Part shown: positions 31,470 through 42,768 of the stretch, in pieces
Layout: each line of letters opens with the position of its first letter
Numbering within the stretch: the first letter of the stretch is position 1
Source of the DNA: Rhodospirillales bacterium
GTDB taxonomy: Bacteria; Pseudomonadota; Alphaproteobacteria; Rhodospirillales; UBA2165
DNA length: 53,467 bases
Direction of reading: 5' to 3'
NCBI GenBank assembly: GCA_012960465.1
Contig: DUBF01000193.1
Location: 1 to 53,467 of the forward strand
The notes under the pieces: generated by a model
Seen by the model: the letters and a program-made list of their open reading frames with translations, nothing else
Told to the model about the DNA's origin: nothing
Database searches by the model: none
Position numbers and translations under genes: made by a program

Positions 31470-31507
31470 AGGCCCCATTATATTTTTATAGTGGGGCCTT
31501 TTTTTTA
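31470..31507 (+). terminator. Rho-independent terminator
   Basis: A 13-bp stem (AGGCCCCATTATA / TATAGTGGGGCCT with one T-G pair) and a tight T-rich loop, followed by eight T on the plus strand. It ends plus-strand transcription from the secreted-protein gene or from an RNA in this gap. It touches the stop codon of the convergent hydrolase gene. Confidence 0.88.
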
Positions 31508-33187
31508 GCGAACAGCTATCGCTAATTCTAGGCTGGGTTGTTCAAATAAGGACATAAAATGATCAAAATCCTGCTTGTCTCCCTCGAGTTGTGCAGATCC
31601 ATCGGTAATTCCTTCCTGGTAGGTTGTTTGCCCAAGAAAGATCTTTGTCAGAAAATTACGCTCACAGCTTATCCTGATATCTTCTGACTTTGGAGCGTCT
31701 GGATGAAATTGACAGACACCTCGACGTATCTCAAGTGCACATATCTCATTTGTGTCAGTTATGTTGAATGTGGAAGTTAGCTCAAGGTTTTTACAATCTT
31801 CAGCCCGTAATCTTACGGTTAGTAAACGTAATAATGATTTACTCGGAAAGTTGCGGATTGCATCTGGGCCTCCAAAAGGTAGGCCTTTTGGAGCTTTTAA
31901 TTTACCTTCTAATTCGAGTGATGTTGTTAATGCCCAGTTTCTCCACGTAATATTTTTTTGATCATAGGCCCAGAGACGGAGGGCTTTTGCCTTTAGCTCT
32001 CGAGCCTCGACATCTGAAGTATTTGCTTTTATGATCCAAGTTACGATTTCAGCAGCCCACTGAAAGTCACCCCCATCAAATGCTAATTTAGCTTTTGCTA
32101 GGACTTGCTCTCTACCACCCATCAATTCAACGTAATTTTCAGCTCGTTCTGATCTTGGCTTGGGGTCTAAATGTATTGGATCTCCGTCGAACCATCCGAC
32201 ATATCCGTCATAAATAGCCGGAGCCGAATGTTTGTAACTACCATAAAACTCACCTAACCATTCGTGTTCGGCAAGATGATCTGGCATAATTACTTCTTCT
32301 CTGATTTCTTCTGGTGTGTAACCGTGGTTCATTCGTCTGACTGTTTGATCGTGCAGATATTGTATAGAGTCTCGATAAGCCACCAGAACATCTTCTATAT
32401 TATCTGCTCCAACTACGGGGATACCGTGATGCGGTATTAGAGTTTCTGGCTCCATACGACGAAGGTGGTCAATGCCATCAACCCAAATCATTGGATCTCG
32501 AAAAGAGGTGCCTCTTAACGCATATAAATTGGGAAAGGTTTGTCCTTGAATTACGTCGGCAGAAATCAAAACCTTGTCTTTTGGAAGCCAAACGATAACC
32601 TGGTCGTCGGTCTCACTTGGTACGTGATGGAGTTCTATTTCAATTCCACAGATCTTGGTTTTCATGATGCCGGAGAATGTTTTAGTGGGTGCTATAAAAC
32701 TTCGTTGTCCGGGAATATTTGGGGGTCCTAAGCCCGCACTAACGTTGCCTTCATCATTTAATGGTAATTGAAAACCAAAGGCATACATGGCTCGGCGAGC
32801 CAGAACTGGTGCTAAAACACCGTTATCTCGGACCATTGCCGGTATTAAATCGTCAAGTGCGATTATCTCTATATTTCCAGCTTGCACATCTTCTTCTGAG
32901 ATAAAAGCGCGAACACCGCTTATATGGTCTGGGTGAACATGCGTATAAATTATTGCTTTAATTGGTTTGTCTGTAATTTTTTTAAGCTCTTCTGCAACGG
33001 GCTTTGCGAATTCTATTGTTGGCAACGTATCAACTAAAATTACGCCGTCGTCGCCTTCAATCATGGTCATATTTGCTGGCGAGTAAGCACAGGCAGTATG
33101 AATATAACCATTTAACGAAACAATCTTTTGTTCCATTTTTGCATCATGGGCTTTTAGTTCAGGGTGGATCGTGATCGGTGTGCTCAT
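31505..33187 (-). CDS. Metallo-beta-lactamase-fold hydrolase, alkylsulfatase (BDS1/SdsA1) type
   Basis: A 560-residue hydrolase. The N-terminal metallo-beta-lactamase domain carries the zinc motif THVHPDH at residues 82-88, with a further ligand region in VPSETDD and PHHGIPV. The alkylsulfatase dimerisation region follows (EHEWLGEFYGSYKHSAPAIY, then GYVGWFDGDP and ELMGGREQVLAKAKLAFDGG). A C-terminal SCP2-like domain occupies about residues 430-560. Family members cut alkyl sulfate esters. No signal peptide is visible, so it is probably cytoplasmic, unlike SdsA1. The ATG has a GAGGGG site and lies 12 bases after the selenoprotein stop codon, so the two share an mRNA. The real substrate is open. 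Confidence 0.9.
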   Translation of the reverse strand: MSTPITIHPELKAHDAKMEQKIVSLNGYIHTACAYSPANMTMIEGDDGVILVDTLPTIEFAKPVAEELKKITDKPIKAIIYTHVHPDHISGVRAFISEEDVQAGNIEIIALDDLIPAMVRDNGVLAPVLARRAMYAFGFQLPLNDEGNVSAGLGPPNIPGQRSFIAPTKTFSGIMKTKICGIEIELHHVPSETDDQVIVWLPKDKVLISADVIQGQTFPNLYALRGTSFRDPMIWVDGIDHLRRMEPETLIPHHGIPVVGADNIEDVLVAYRDSIQYLHDQTVRRMNHGYTPEEIREEVIMPDHLAEHEWLGEFYGSYKHSAPAIYDGYVGWFDGDPIHLDPKPRSERAENYVELMGGREQVLAKAKLAFDGGDFQWAAEIVTWIIKANTSDVEARELKAKALRLWAYDQKNITWRNWALTTSLELEGKLKAPKGLPFGGPDAIRNFPSKSLLRLLTVRLRAEDCKNLELTSTFNITDTNEICALEIRRGVCQFHPDAPKSEDIRISCERNFLTKIFLGQTTYQEGITDGSAQLEGDKQDFDHFMSLFEQPSLELAIAVR

Positions 33188-33199
33188 TTCATGTTCCCC

Positions 33200-33865
33200 T
33201 CAAGAATTCAATAATGCACGGATTGAGCCCTCAAGCTCATCAACATCAAAATAAAGGGGCCCCATTCCTCCCTGATAAGCAATTTTACCTTTTGAATTGA
33301 TGAGATAAAGCCTGTCAGGCCACGATTGATAGGCCTCCTCTGCCGCATTATCCATTTTCTCGAGTAACATTGGGAATGAGAAATTATAACGGAGCATGCA
33401 GGCAGCAGCCACTTCCGCGCGTTCGTCTTCGGTTGTGGGATCATTAAAAATAATTCCTTCTTCGACGTTACGAAGGACTTGATCATTATCTTCTGGATGT
33501 GCTTCGCGAATATAAATACCAAGAAACTGTATTTGGCTGTTAAATTCTTTCGCTAATTTGTCGAGGCGCACGGCCCCGTCTCTAAAAGGTGGTCAGGTAT
33601 AAGATCCGAAGATAAGCGCAATGGGCTTGCCAAAATATGAGGAAAGACTAACGTCTTTACTTGTCCGTTTTCCTTGTTTATCGAGACATTCAACTTCAAA
33701 ATCCGGAGCGTTGGCACCGACTTTAGGTGATAATTCGTTATCACGAATAACACGCTTTTCTATAAAGGATCTTAATTCATCCCGTGTCATCCCACGTTTC
33801 TCTAGCCATTCGACTGTAGAATCTTGAACAATACGTTCAAACTTCTCCGGTAATTCAATTGACAT
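33200..33865 (-). CDS. Deiodinase-family selenoprotein (in-frame UGA read as selenocysteine)
   Basis: A 221-residue thioredoxin-fold protein if the TGA at 33593-33595 is read as selenocysteine 91. Before it comes VGANAPDFEVECLDKQGKRT and ALIFGSYT; after it PPFRDGAV in the same frame. FGSxT-U-PPF is the active-site signature of iodothyronine deiodinases. The downstream half also follows that family: IYIREAH (117-123, IYIEEAH in animal enzymes) and WPDRLYLINSKGKIAYQGG. A start at 33865 has an AAGGAG site. A bacterial SECIS hairpin lies 20 bases after the UGA. A standard reading would give two false genes (33593-33865 and 33200-33571). The role is probably reductive or peroxide chemistry at Sec; activity on iodothyronines is not implied. 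No selA, selB, selC or selD is in the window. Confidence 0.9.
33562..33578 (-). promoter_or_regulatory. Bacterial SECIS element
   Basis: On the mRNA: CGGGGCCGUGCGCCUCG. Six pairs (C-G, G-C, G-U, G-C, G-C, C-G) close a five-base loop, CGUGC. The loop starts 20 bases after the UGA and has G as its second base. Both fit the known bSECIS rules (loop 16-37 bases downstream, a G in the first two loop positions). Confidence 0.75.
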
Positions 33866-33916
33866 TATAATTTCTCCTTTTGGTAGGCCATGAACTATTC
33901 TATTAATTGTCCCGGC

Positions 33917-33933
33917 TAGTTTCTATGTAACTA
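33917..33933. promoter_or_regulatory. Candidate LysR operator
   Basis: TAGTT-N7-AACTA, an interrupted inverted repeat in the middle of the 146-base divergent region between the selenoprotein operon and the lysR gene. The outer G and C are eleven bases apart, close to the usual LysR spacing. It is the best dyad in this gap. Confidence 0.5.
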
Positions 33934-34011
33934 AATTAATAAAATCCTTGAAAAAAATAACATGCTTGCATATTTAATAATTAAATCAACTAATGTATAT
34001 TAATAATATAT

Positions 34012-34908
34012 ATGAAGAAAATTAATTACTTAGAAATTGACGGGCGGCTTCTTCGACTGTTTCTGATTGTATTTGAGGAGCAATCGGTTACCAGAGCCGC
34101 TGCGCGTCTTGATTTGACGCAATCTGCGGTTAGTCATGGTCTCGAGAAGTTACGTAAAATCATTAAAGATCCGCTATTTGTTCGATCTGGACGCGGGATA
34201 ACAGCGACCTATGTCGCTGAACAAATGGTCGAGGATGTTCGCGGCCTTTTACGAAATATGCGGTCACTATCAGAGCCTCGGGGGTTCAAACTTGAAGCAG
34301 TCGCTGGAAAATTTGTAATAGCAGCTAGCGATATTTTATGGCCTTTATTGCTTTCTGACCTTTTTATCGCAATTACCGCGCAATCACCTAATTTGGATTT
34401 ACGTATCGTAAATGCTGGCCCTGATGCTACAAATTCATTAAGGGAGGGACATTTTGATCTAGTTCTTACCCCGATTCTCCCACAAGGTAGTGAGTTTAAA
34501 CAGCAAAAACTTTTCGAAGATGAGTATGTTTGTTTCTTTGATCCAAAATGTACCAATGCTCCAAAAACTTTGGACGACTATCTCTCGCGTCATCATGCCC
34601 GTATTGTATTTTCAACTATTGAAACTAATCTGATCGATCAACTTTTATCAACTATGGGAAAGAACCGCAGGGTAGCATTACAAGTCCCAAGTTTTGCTGG
34701 ATTACCAGGATTAATGAAAGGGACAGAGCTCATAGCCCTTTTGCCGTCTTCAATTAGGGAATCGATAATGATAGATTTTGATGTAGCTCCGTCACCAGTA
34801 ATGATTGACGATCTTAAGGTTTACCAAATTTGGCATAGCAGGGATGATGATAGTCCTTTGCATGAATGGATCCGGATATTTCTAAAAAAACTAGCCTTAA
34901 AAATATAG
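34012..34908 (+). CDS. LysR-family transcriptional regulator
   Basis: A 298-residue regulator. The N-terminal winged helix-turn-helix is typical (LFLIVFEEQSVTRAAARLDL, then TQSAVSHGLEKLRKIIKDPL). The effector domain starts at about residue 93 (KLEAVAGKFVIAASDILWPL), and resembles the NodD/SyrM-like group. It is divergent from the selenoprotein-hydrolase operon, which it probably controls. The hairpin at 34889-34938 ends the gene. Confidence 0.93.
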   Translation: MKKINYLEIDGRLLRLFLIVFEEQSVTRAAARLDLTQSAVSHGLEKLRKIIKDPLFVRSGRGITATYVAEQMVEDVRGLLRNMRSLSEPRGFKLEAVAGKFVIAASDILWPLLLSDLFIAITAQSPNLDLRIVNAGPDATNSLREGHFDLVLTPILPQGSEFKQQKLFEDEYVCFFDPKCTNAPKTLDDYLSRHHARIVFSTIETNLIDQLLSTMGKNRRVALQVPSFAGLPGLMKGTELIALLPSSIRESIMIDFDVAPSPVMIDDLKVYQIWHSRDDDSPLHEWIRIFLKKLALKI

Positions 34909-41367: not shown

Positions 41368-42768
41368 TTAAGGCAAATAGTCCTTCAAATTCACGTTATT
41401 AAAGTTAAGTGGAAATGCTGGCTCAAAATCTCTGCGCTCGTTTTCTGATAAATGTGCTGGAATCGTTGCATCTATCATCCATTTTGTGCCGATGCGGGCA
41501 AAGTTTCCCATCGCTGGAGCAGTAGGAGAAATATTATCGAGTGAGAAGACGCGCGTATTTGGGATCATGGTGACGTCGCGTTCAGCATGAACTCTTGTTG
41601 TCAACGACCAAGCAATTTGGCGGAGATCATTAGCATCAATATCTTCATCAACTGCGATGGCGAGTTTGGGGTGAAGATATGGTCCAGAAAGGGCAGCCAT
41701 TAGAGCAGTTTTAGTTTGTCCCGGGTGGCGGGGGCGGATTTTGAGAATTAGCATCATAACACCGGCTTCAGTGATAGCGCGGACGTCAAGAAGATTTAAC
41801 CCACCCTCTACATTTCTTAAATGTTTTTTGGTGGCAACCTCAACGCCTAAACCCATAGTAGATTGGGCATCTGTCACTGGAAATCCACAGTGTAATGCGA
41901 AGAAAATTGGGTCTTTACGCTGGGTAATGGCTTTAACTTGGAATACTTCAGACTTGCCTCCGCCGGCATAAGTCCCCGTCACCTCTCCAAATGGTCCTTC
42001 TGGCTCGGTAAAATTTGGAAGAACTTCTCCTTCAATAACGATTTCAGCATCTGCCGGAACCTCTAGGTCAGTTGTCTCACATTTGGTTAGACGCACCGGT
42101 TCCTCCATTAAAGCGCCTGCTATTTCAAATTCATCATTACCAAATGCGGTGGTAAAACTTGATGCAAAAAAGATAGCTGGATGAATGCCATAAACCATTG
42201 CAACTGGCATAGCTTCCCCACGCGCGCTATATTTTTCATAGATTTGCCTAGCCTGACGGGGGATCATTACAAATCCAGTTTTGTCCTTACCTGTTATCAT
42301 TTGACGATGTACGGAAAGATTACGGATGCCTGTATCTGGGTCTTTGATTATGGCGATGCCTGAAGCAAAGTAACGTCCACCATCTTTTTCAGACGTCAGC
42401 ATGGTTGGAAAATCGTATAGATTTATATCGGTCCCGGTTTTGATAATTTCTTTTACCGGTGTACTACCATGTGTGATTTTGGGGGCAATGGGCGTAAGCA
42501 TTCGTTCCAGCATTTGATCCAATATATTGTGTTCATCCAGATCAAGCCCAATTGCCCATTTCTTACGGTCAGCTATGATTTGGCTGCAGGCCTGCCAGTT
42601 TTTATGGCCTTTGATATTTATAAATAAGCTAGCCTTGCCCATTTCGTTGAATGTCTTCCATCCTACCGCTGCCATATTAGCTAATGGATCTACAGTTTTA
42701 GTAAACCGAATTAGCTCGCCCTGCTGTTCTAGGTTAGATAGCATCGTGCGAAAAGATTGGTCTGGCAT
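41368..42768 (-). CDS. UbiD-family decarboxylase
   Basis: A 466-residue member of the prenylated-FMN-dependent (de)carboxylase family. Typical segments are seen: DINLYDFPTMLTSEKDGGRY, MVYGIHPAIFFASSFTTAFG, EGPFGEVTGTYAGGGKSEVF and the C-terminal PHPKLAIAVDEDIDANDLRQ-like stretch. The substrate cannot be set: UbiD itself acts on polyprenyl-hydroxybenzoate, while many relatives act on aromatic or phenolic acids. The divergent neighbour is a binding protein, which favours catabolism of an imported acid over ubiquinone synthesis. No ubiX is in the window. Confidence 0.88.
   Translation of the reverse strand: MPDQSFRTMLSNLEQQGELIRFTKTVDPLANMAAVGWKTFNEMGKASLFINIKGHKNWQACSQIIADRKKWAIGLDLDEHNILDQMLERMLTPIAPKITHGSTPVKEIIKTGTDINLYDFPTMLTSEKDGGRYFASGIAIIKDPDTGIRNLSVHRQMITGKDKTGFVMIPRQARQIYEKYSARGEAMPVAMVYGIHPAIFFASSFTTAFGNDEFEIAGALMEEPVRLTKCETTDLEVPADAEIVIEGEVLPNFTEPEGPFGEVTGTYAGGGKSEVFQVKAITQRKDPIFFALHCGFPVTDAQSTMGLGVEVATKKHLRNVEGGLNLLDVRAITEAGVMMLILKIRPRHPGQTKTALMAALSGPYLHPKLAIAVDEDIDANDLRQIAWSLTTRVHAERDVTMIPNTRVFSLDNISPTAPAMGNFARIGTKWMIDATIPAHLSENERRDFEPAFPLNFNNVNLKDYLP

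Follow-up and report, generated by a model that had tools for sequence, protein, structure and literature searches.

The stretch of DNA analyzed here (hereafter the window; 53,467 nucleotides from a Rhodospirillales bacterium) carries on its minus strand a gene for a deiodinase-like selenoprotein (dio, 33200-33865), made up of 221 codons plus a stop and running from an ATG at 33863-33865 to a TGA at 33200-33202. The frame contains one internal stop, a TGA at codon 91 (33593-33595) within the motif FGSYT-U-PPF, and is otherwise free of stops. Ordinary open reading frame (ORF) calling breaks the gene into pieces of 90 aa (33593-33865) and 123 aa (33200-33571), the split expected of automatic annotation in the original prediction, which gave the coordinates and motif correctly and left the minus-strand location unmentioned. 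Read through the TGA, the joined 221-residue protein (Dio) matches PF00837 with 90.5 bits against a cut-off of 27, over residues 25-212 and on both sides of the TGA, and 78/78 relatives match the same model at E 0.001. AhpC-TSA also matches the window protein (36.2 bits), while Redoxin stays under its cut-off. The continuity of frame and homology is more than chance because orthologs from other assemblies, 63-77% identical, cover both sides and have TGA at the same codon; the proposed joining of two ORFs over a single TGA thus stands.

Immediately downstream, beginning with an ATG 12 nt past the stop of dio, lies a gene for a 560-aa alkyl-sulfatase-like metallo-hydrolase (31505-33187, minus strand; PF00753, PF14863, PF14864). 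On the other side, 146 nt (33866-34011, from ORF positions) separate dio from the divergent gene of a 298-aa LysR-family regulator (34012-34908, plus strand; PF00126, PF03466). A search for a mobile origin of the locus gave no phage match and one plasmid match at 26% identity. Elsewhere in the genome, additional genes of the deiodinase family contain a TGA in frame, at L001:1447-2091 (contig C92) and contig C73:12040-12501. A second selenocysteine (Sec) at the final TGA of dio was considered and ruled out, as TAA or TAG closes the gene in ten of 15 clade members (TAA six, TGA five, TAG four); the final TGA is an ordinary stop.

Codon 91, by comparison, is TGA in all 79 related loci (77 scored by script, L090 and L142 from sequence output and translation with TGA as U), and a Cys codon, which in close homologs would have pointed to a sequencing error, was not found there. 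The genome of the window, a draft of 98.8% completeness in 245 contigs, carries all four components of the Sec machinery that the original prediction proposed to look for. The tRNA-Sec gene (anticodon TCA; L015:6799-6894, minus strand) is on the same contig as selA and selB; selB (L015:15335-17257, minus strand) is directly downstream of selA, the pair spanning L015:15335-18657 on that strand, and selD (contig C109:49958-50887) has its own in-frame TGA near the start. Among 60 related genomes, 21 have a UPPF- or UPPY-type copy bearing TGA (L025-L045). SelA could be identified in 15 of the 21, including 7/7 of those at least 90% complete; the six misses are all in genomes of 57-89% completeness. 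A strong SelA match also occurs in nine of the remaining 39 genomes, so that the Sec trait is needed, yet insufficient, for the presence of such a dio gene.

A SECIS-like hairpin directly 3′ of the UGA is predicted from pair counts, consensus folding and loop codon bias. In the window it occupies 33562-33578 (minus strand), with a 6-bp stem and a 5-nt loop, CGUGC; taken more generally, the stem has 5-6 pairs, and the small loop contains a G. In 26 different sequences, standard pairs fill 92.3% of pair cells vs. 28-53% with a slid partner, 23 pair cells are changed on both sides vs. a shuffled mean of 7.7, and the covariation score is 0.458 vs. 0.195 in shuffles. Three stem pairs have two-sided changes, a number that is unremarkable (114/500 shuffles reach it), and the outermost pair is broken in 9/26 sequences, RNAalifold keeping the other five. 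The loop place encodes Val-Arg in 59/77 scripted loci and the Val codon there is GTG in 59/59, against 186/664 Val codons (28%) elsewhere in the same genes, although these sequences are related and the comparison is not one of independent cases. The 25 loci from L119 on have mixed hairpins, some of proteobacterial type and others with GGU or GGC loops, and the minimum-energy folds of L124, L131, and L132 lack a clean hairpin. Folded alone, the window sequence after the TGA does no better than shuffles (z 0.48), and it is the comparative test alone that is decisive for the predicted hairpin. Rfam has no family at this place, its four weak matches elsewhere in 33200-34000 being at chance level.

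Could the TGA instead be a sequencing error, or dio a decaying pseudogene? The draft state of the genome leaves some room for this, but the TGA of all 79 loci, the covarying hairpin with its fixed loop codon, the complete Sec machinery and a frame otherwise free of stops contradict it and make it hardly credible. Because the TGA is conserved, the hairpin covaries, the loop codon is fixed and the machinery is complete, the UGA of codon 91 is almost certainly decoded as Sec in a bacterial deiodinase-family selenoprotein. The selenoprotein reading of the original prediction is therefore borne out by machinery, TGA conservation, hairpin and PF00837 match.

The same prediction considered bacterial members of the family rare and mostly marine, which is too strong. 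A scan of contigs from one genome per species found 487 stretches that encode a relative; the best 80 of these, representing 79 distinct loci, were kept, and their genomes partly overlap with those of the genome search (e.g., L026 and L066). Some record titles among the 79 point to groundwater, palsa or a lake (Erken), and the phyla represented include Planctomycetota, Armatimonadota, Acidobacteriota, and Myxococcota. Bacterial deiodinase-like selenoproteins are thus neither rare nor confined to the sea. A tree built from 77 proteins places the window in a 17-member clade (support 100/99), its nearest relative being L066 from MarineAlpha3_Bin7 (78% identical). Some records of this clade are titled Chromatiales, Granulosicoccaceae and, once, Planctomycetaceae, bin names that may be wrong. 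Another clade, L081-L090, joins it with weak support (84/90). Cys-coded relatives were also found among 398 genomes of the phylum, full-length and stop-free in G142 (two copies), G305, G308, G163, G191, and G107, with a fragment in G264 and a weak match in G158. In two Cys-form proteins of 350-366 aa (L146:505-1605 and L147:443-1495), the N-terminal half is long and hydrophobic, and the motif reads FGSYSCPHH.

Structural comparison places the window protein closest to the animal enzymes. Its sequence matches mouse Dio3 (E 3.7e-17) and Dio2 (6.1e-16) in the PDB, with the next match at 0.0044, and the family profile gives 5e-31 for Dio3 and 2e-29 for Dio2. An AlphaFold2 model built on 78 aligned sequences has a pLDDT of 95.1 and a pTM of 0.90, and Foldseek ranks Dio2 (9h48, E 4.8e-14) and Dio3 (4tr3, E 2.0e-13) first and second in the PDB, followed from about 1e-9 by ResA and other thioredoxin-fold proteins including peroxiredoxins. 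The model thus predicts a thioredoxin fold nearest to the Dio catalytic cores. Ser88, Tyr118, Glu121, and His123 are invariant (78/78) and Thr90 is found in 76/78; these five match the relay residues named for Dio2 (PMC11592359). Like animal Dio1-3, the window protein combines Sec in GSxTUPPF, the Ser/Thr/Tyr/Glu/His relay and a predicted thioredoxin fold. Unlike them, it has a bacterial-type SECIS and no N-terminal membrane helix: its N-terminus, read by eye, has charged, helical residues and no long hydrophobic stretch, and a membrane anchor is probably absent. The position equivalent to Dio2 His182, the further His of the relay, also differs: it is Pro143 in the window and Pro in 75/78 proteins (His in two, Ala in one).

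Instead of the distal Cys of the animal enzymes, the bacterial proteins have Cys156 (codon at 33398-33400, minus strand), a candidate resolving Cys at a position without Cys in those enzymes. It is present in 74/77 Sec proteins that reach this position; of the three exceptions, two carry a Cys at the following residue and one lacks it. In Dio3, Cys168 or Cys239 is thought to resolve the selenenyl iodide (PMC12025243), whereas the window protein has Tyr at the place of Cys168 and no Cys aligned to Cys239, two alignments differing by about two residues around Cys156. Cys156 is absent from L146-L150 and the genome's own three Cys paralogs (8/8 rows), and both Cys-form copies of G142 (L145 and L170) have Trp there, as judged by eye. 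That Cys forms always lack Cys156 is nevertheless refuted by L169, a Cys form matched on the minus strand with 40% identity to the query used, which keeps Cys156 together with Cys at the catalytic position and offers a natural counterpart for comparison with the Sec enzymes. Cys156 is therefore not limited to Sec forms and marks the UPPF-type branch, usually but not only alongside Sec.

Deiodinase-like bacterial selenoproteins as such are not new. They were reported in 2005 from the Sargasso Sea, with four unique sequences, Cys forms and a bacterial SECIS (PMC1088965), and the family's row in the GOS table has 22 as its first number (PMC2398784). These proteins share with Dio the PF00837 domain, a UGA-coded Sec with the SECIS directly after it and an origin in marine bacteria, but are metagenome reads of no demonstrated function (PMC1088965; PMC2398784). 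Reviews give the family motif as UxxC (PMC9312934; PMC13188914), whereas the window has UPPF and a second Cys 65 residues later; UPPF forms may be among the 2005 sequences (PMC1088965). Two Sec relatives of the UxxC type, L048 and L049 (frames of about 260-330 aa), resemble the window in the TGA of FGSxT-U and the EAH motif, but have U-P-Y-C for U-P-P-F, an extra Cys at U+3 and no Cys156; a SelA match turned up in the L048 genome, and none for L049 (82% complete). The window protein matches the C-terminal half of the NCBIfam model NF038285 (deiodinase family protein; 347 positions) at 163.1 bits, below the cut-off of 250. An EF-hand fusion has also been noted (PMC9402790). A 2026 review describes the functions of such selenoprotein families as largely uncharacterized (PMC13188914). 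What is added here is the conserved Cys156, the recurring catabolic neighborhood of the window clade and a fusion of dio with an alkyl sulfatase domain; among titles and abstract openings of open-licence literature, none dealt with the neighborhood of dio or the second Cys.

Neighboring genes were taken as clustered ORFs around the 79 loci and the window, called mechanically at a minimum of 100 aa and in some cases mis-framed (L071 and L074). The window clade here comprises 18 loci (the 17 in the tree plus the short L105), with 62 other loci for comparison. TRAP permeases are found near seven of the 18, CMD near six, alkyl sulfatase and a TAXI-type binding protein (a label given here) near five each, and GST near three, vs. 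0/62 for every one of these in the other loci, counts that ignore shared descent and include near relatives such as L072/L074 and L080/L107 twice. The DctM, CMD, GST, NMT1_3, and sulfatase domains were assigned by Pfam on examples. As background, the 3.74-Mb window genome has 12 NMT1_3 and two alkyl-sulfatase genes over cut-off, or about 3% and 0.5% per 10 kb in this one genome. Regulators recur upstream of dio: a divergent LysR gene in seven loci (the window, L066, L070, L072, L074, L076, and L105), a same-strand IclR gene in three (L068, L069, and L073) and a divergent IclR gene in L080 and L107. In the close pair L068 and L069, LigB and LigA lie just downstream of dio on the opposite strand, and in L073 a sulfatase-like hydrolase, CMD and a PF00884 sulfatase stand in a row. 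An earlier set of 11 ortholog regions (L055-L065), several of them incomplete and some from the same genomes as later loci, had no sulfatase, and a LysR gene like that of the window was found in L055 only, plus a weak one in L064.

Other clades have other neighbors. A Rieske alpha subunit and a SnoaL-type small subunit are near five of the ten loci L081-L090, with neither near L087 and L088 despite full flanks. UbiD and TauD are near L108, L109, L122, and L129 (Pfam on L109, clusters for the rest), and asparagine synthase near ten loci of other clades (Pfam on L091). A link other than gene order is provided by L080, where a second, inverted dio (L080:2865-3878, minus strand) with TGA at the same place runs on at its C-terminus into an Alkyl_sulf_C domain (PF14864, 3.7e-12), which shares 36% identity with its counterpart in the window's sulfatase-like neighbor. 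A search of 385 genomes of the class gave no other fused match, and the genome of L080 has four dio matches; though a single case, the predicted fusion ties Dio to alkyl sulfatase independently of gene order.

What, then, might Dio do? Membership of PF00837 does not make iodothyronines the substrate, and they are not expected to be. The uptake systems, hydrolase, enzymes that cleave or hydroxylate rings, and regulators suggest degradation of a small organic compound; the active site, of animal type, suggests removal of halogen from a ring. The step from gene context to chemistry is one that we infer. Our best guess, tentative and a little short of an even chance, is that Dio is a Sec-dependent reductive dehalogenase taking part in small-molecule catabolism. 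The selenolate of Sec91, positioned by Ser88, Thr90, Tyr118, Glu121, and His123 as in animal Dio, would remove a halogen from a small organic substrate; Cys156 would attack the Se-halogen intermediate to form a Se-S bond, which a cellular thiol would then reduce. Dio would thereby serve a pathway that takes up and degrades a small organic compound, probably an aromatic or sulfated one, under LysR or IclR regulation. Several observations count against this. No known dehalogenase or halogen-specific gene was found among the dio neighbors, the sulfatase-like gene is patchy, being near only 5/18 clade members and none of the earlier 11 ortholog regions, the fusion is a single case, and the ten loci with asparagine synthase have that gene instead. 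The Pro at the second relay His would likewise argue against a dehalogenase.

The main rival, almost as likely, is a selenoprotein peroxidase or thiol-disulfide reductase, in which Sec91 would meet peroxide and Cys156 resolve, like a 2-Cys peroxiredoxin. The AhpC-TSA model matches 78/78 aligned proteins and a CMD/AhpD-family gene is near six of the 18 clade members, features that would fit plain redox work; peroxiredoxins and ResA come next among the solved folds, and a redox role was proposed in 2005 (PMC1088965). With 2-Cys peroxiredoxins and ResA, Dio would share the thioredoxin fold, a catalytic chalcogen at the same place and possibly a resolving Cys, but the sequence and fold match is weaker than to animal Dio, the window protein has no CxxC, both the closest solved folds and the residues of the active site are deiodinase ones, and the neighbors include genes for uptake and ring cleavage, not for stress. 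Action on another bond, e.g., a sulfur, quinone or thioether group left by the ring dioxygenases or the sulfatase-like enzyme, would be consistent with the GST genes near three clade members, the glutaredoxin-domain gene near L082 and the L080 fusion, but has no direct support and is distinctly improbable. No deiodinase-family member is known to have sulfur-, quinone- or thioether-reducing activity.

Taken with Cys156 and the single fusion, the neighborhood makes a testable enzyme hypothesis for a family listed since 2005. If dehalogenation is true, it would add a selenium-based route to natural organohalogen turnover and bear on the origin of the thyroid-hormone deiodinases. A wider and rather unlikely extension is that bacterial UPPF-type homologs are widespread Se-dependent reductive dehalogenases, which would need neither cobalamin nor flavin and would help degrade natural halogenated or sulfated organics aerobically. 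Cys156 would then resolve the selenenyl halide, and the animal deiodinases would form a late, specialized branch of this chemistry.

Some arrangements near dio genes are reported here as observations. In the close pair L114 and L115, the dio stop is 21 nt upstream of selA, which is followed by selB (L114:15-3985 and L115:5001-8971; neighbors confirmed by Pfam in L114), and the three genes are arranged as if in a single operon. A third such locus, L104, was dropped, as a 383-aa minus-strand frame intervenes. Downstream of dio in L068 and L069, a LigAB-type aromatic ring-cleavage dioxygenase, GST and, in L069, TauD stand in a row. In the window itself, a UbiD-family decarboxylase gene (41368-42768, minus strand) lies about 7.5 kb from dio, past flagellar-type genes.
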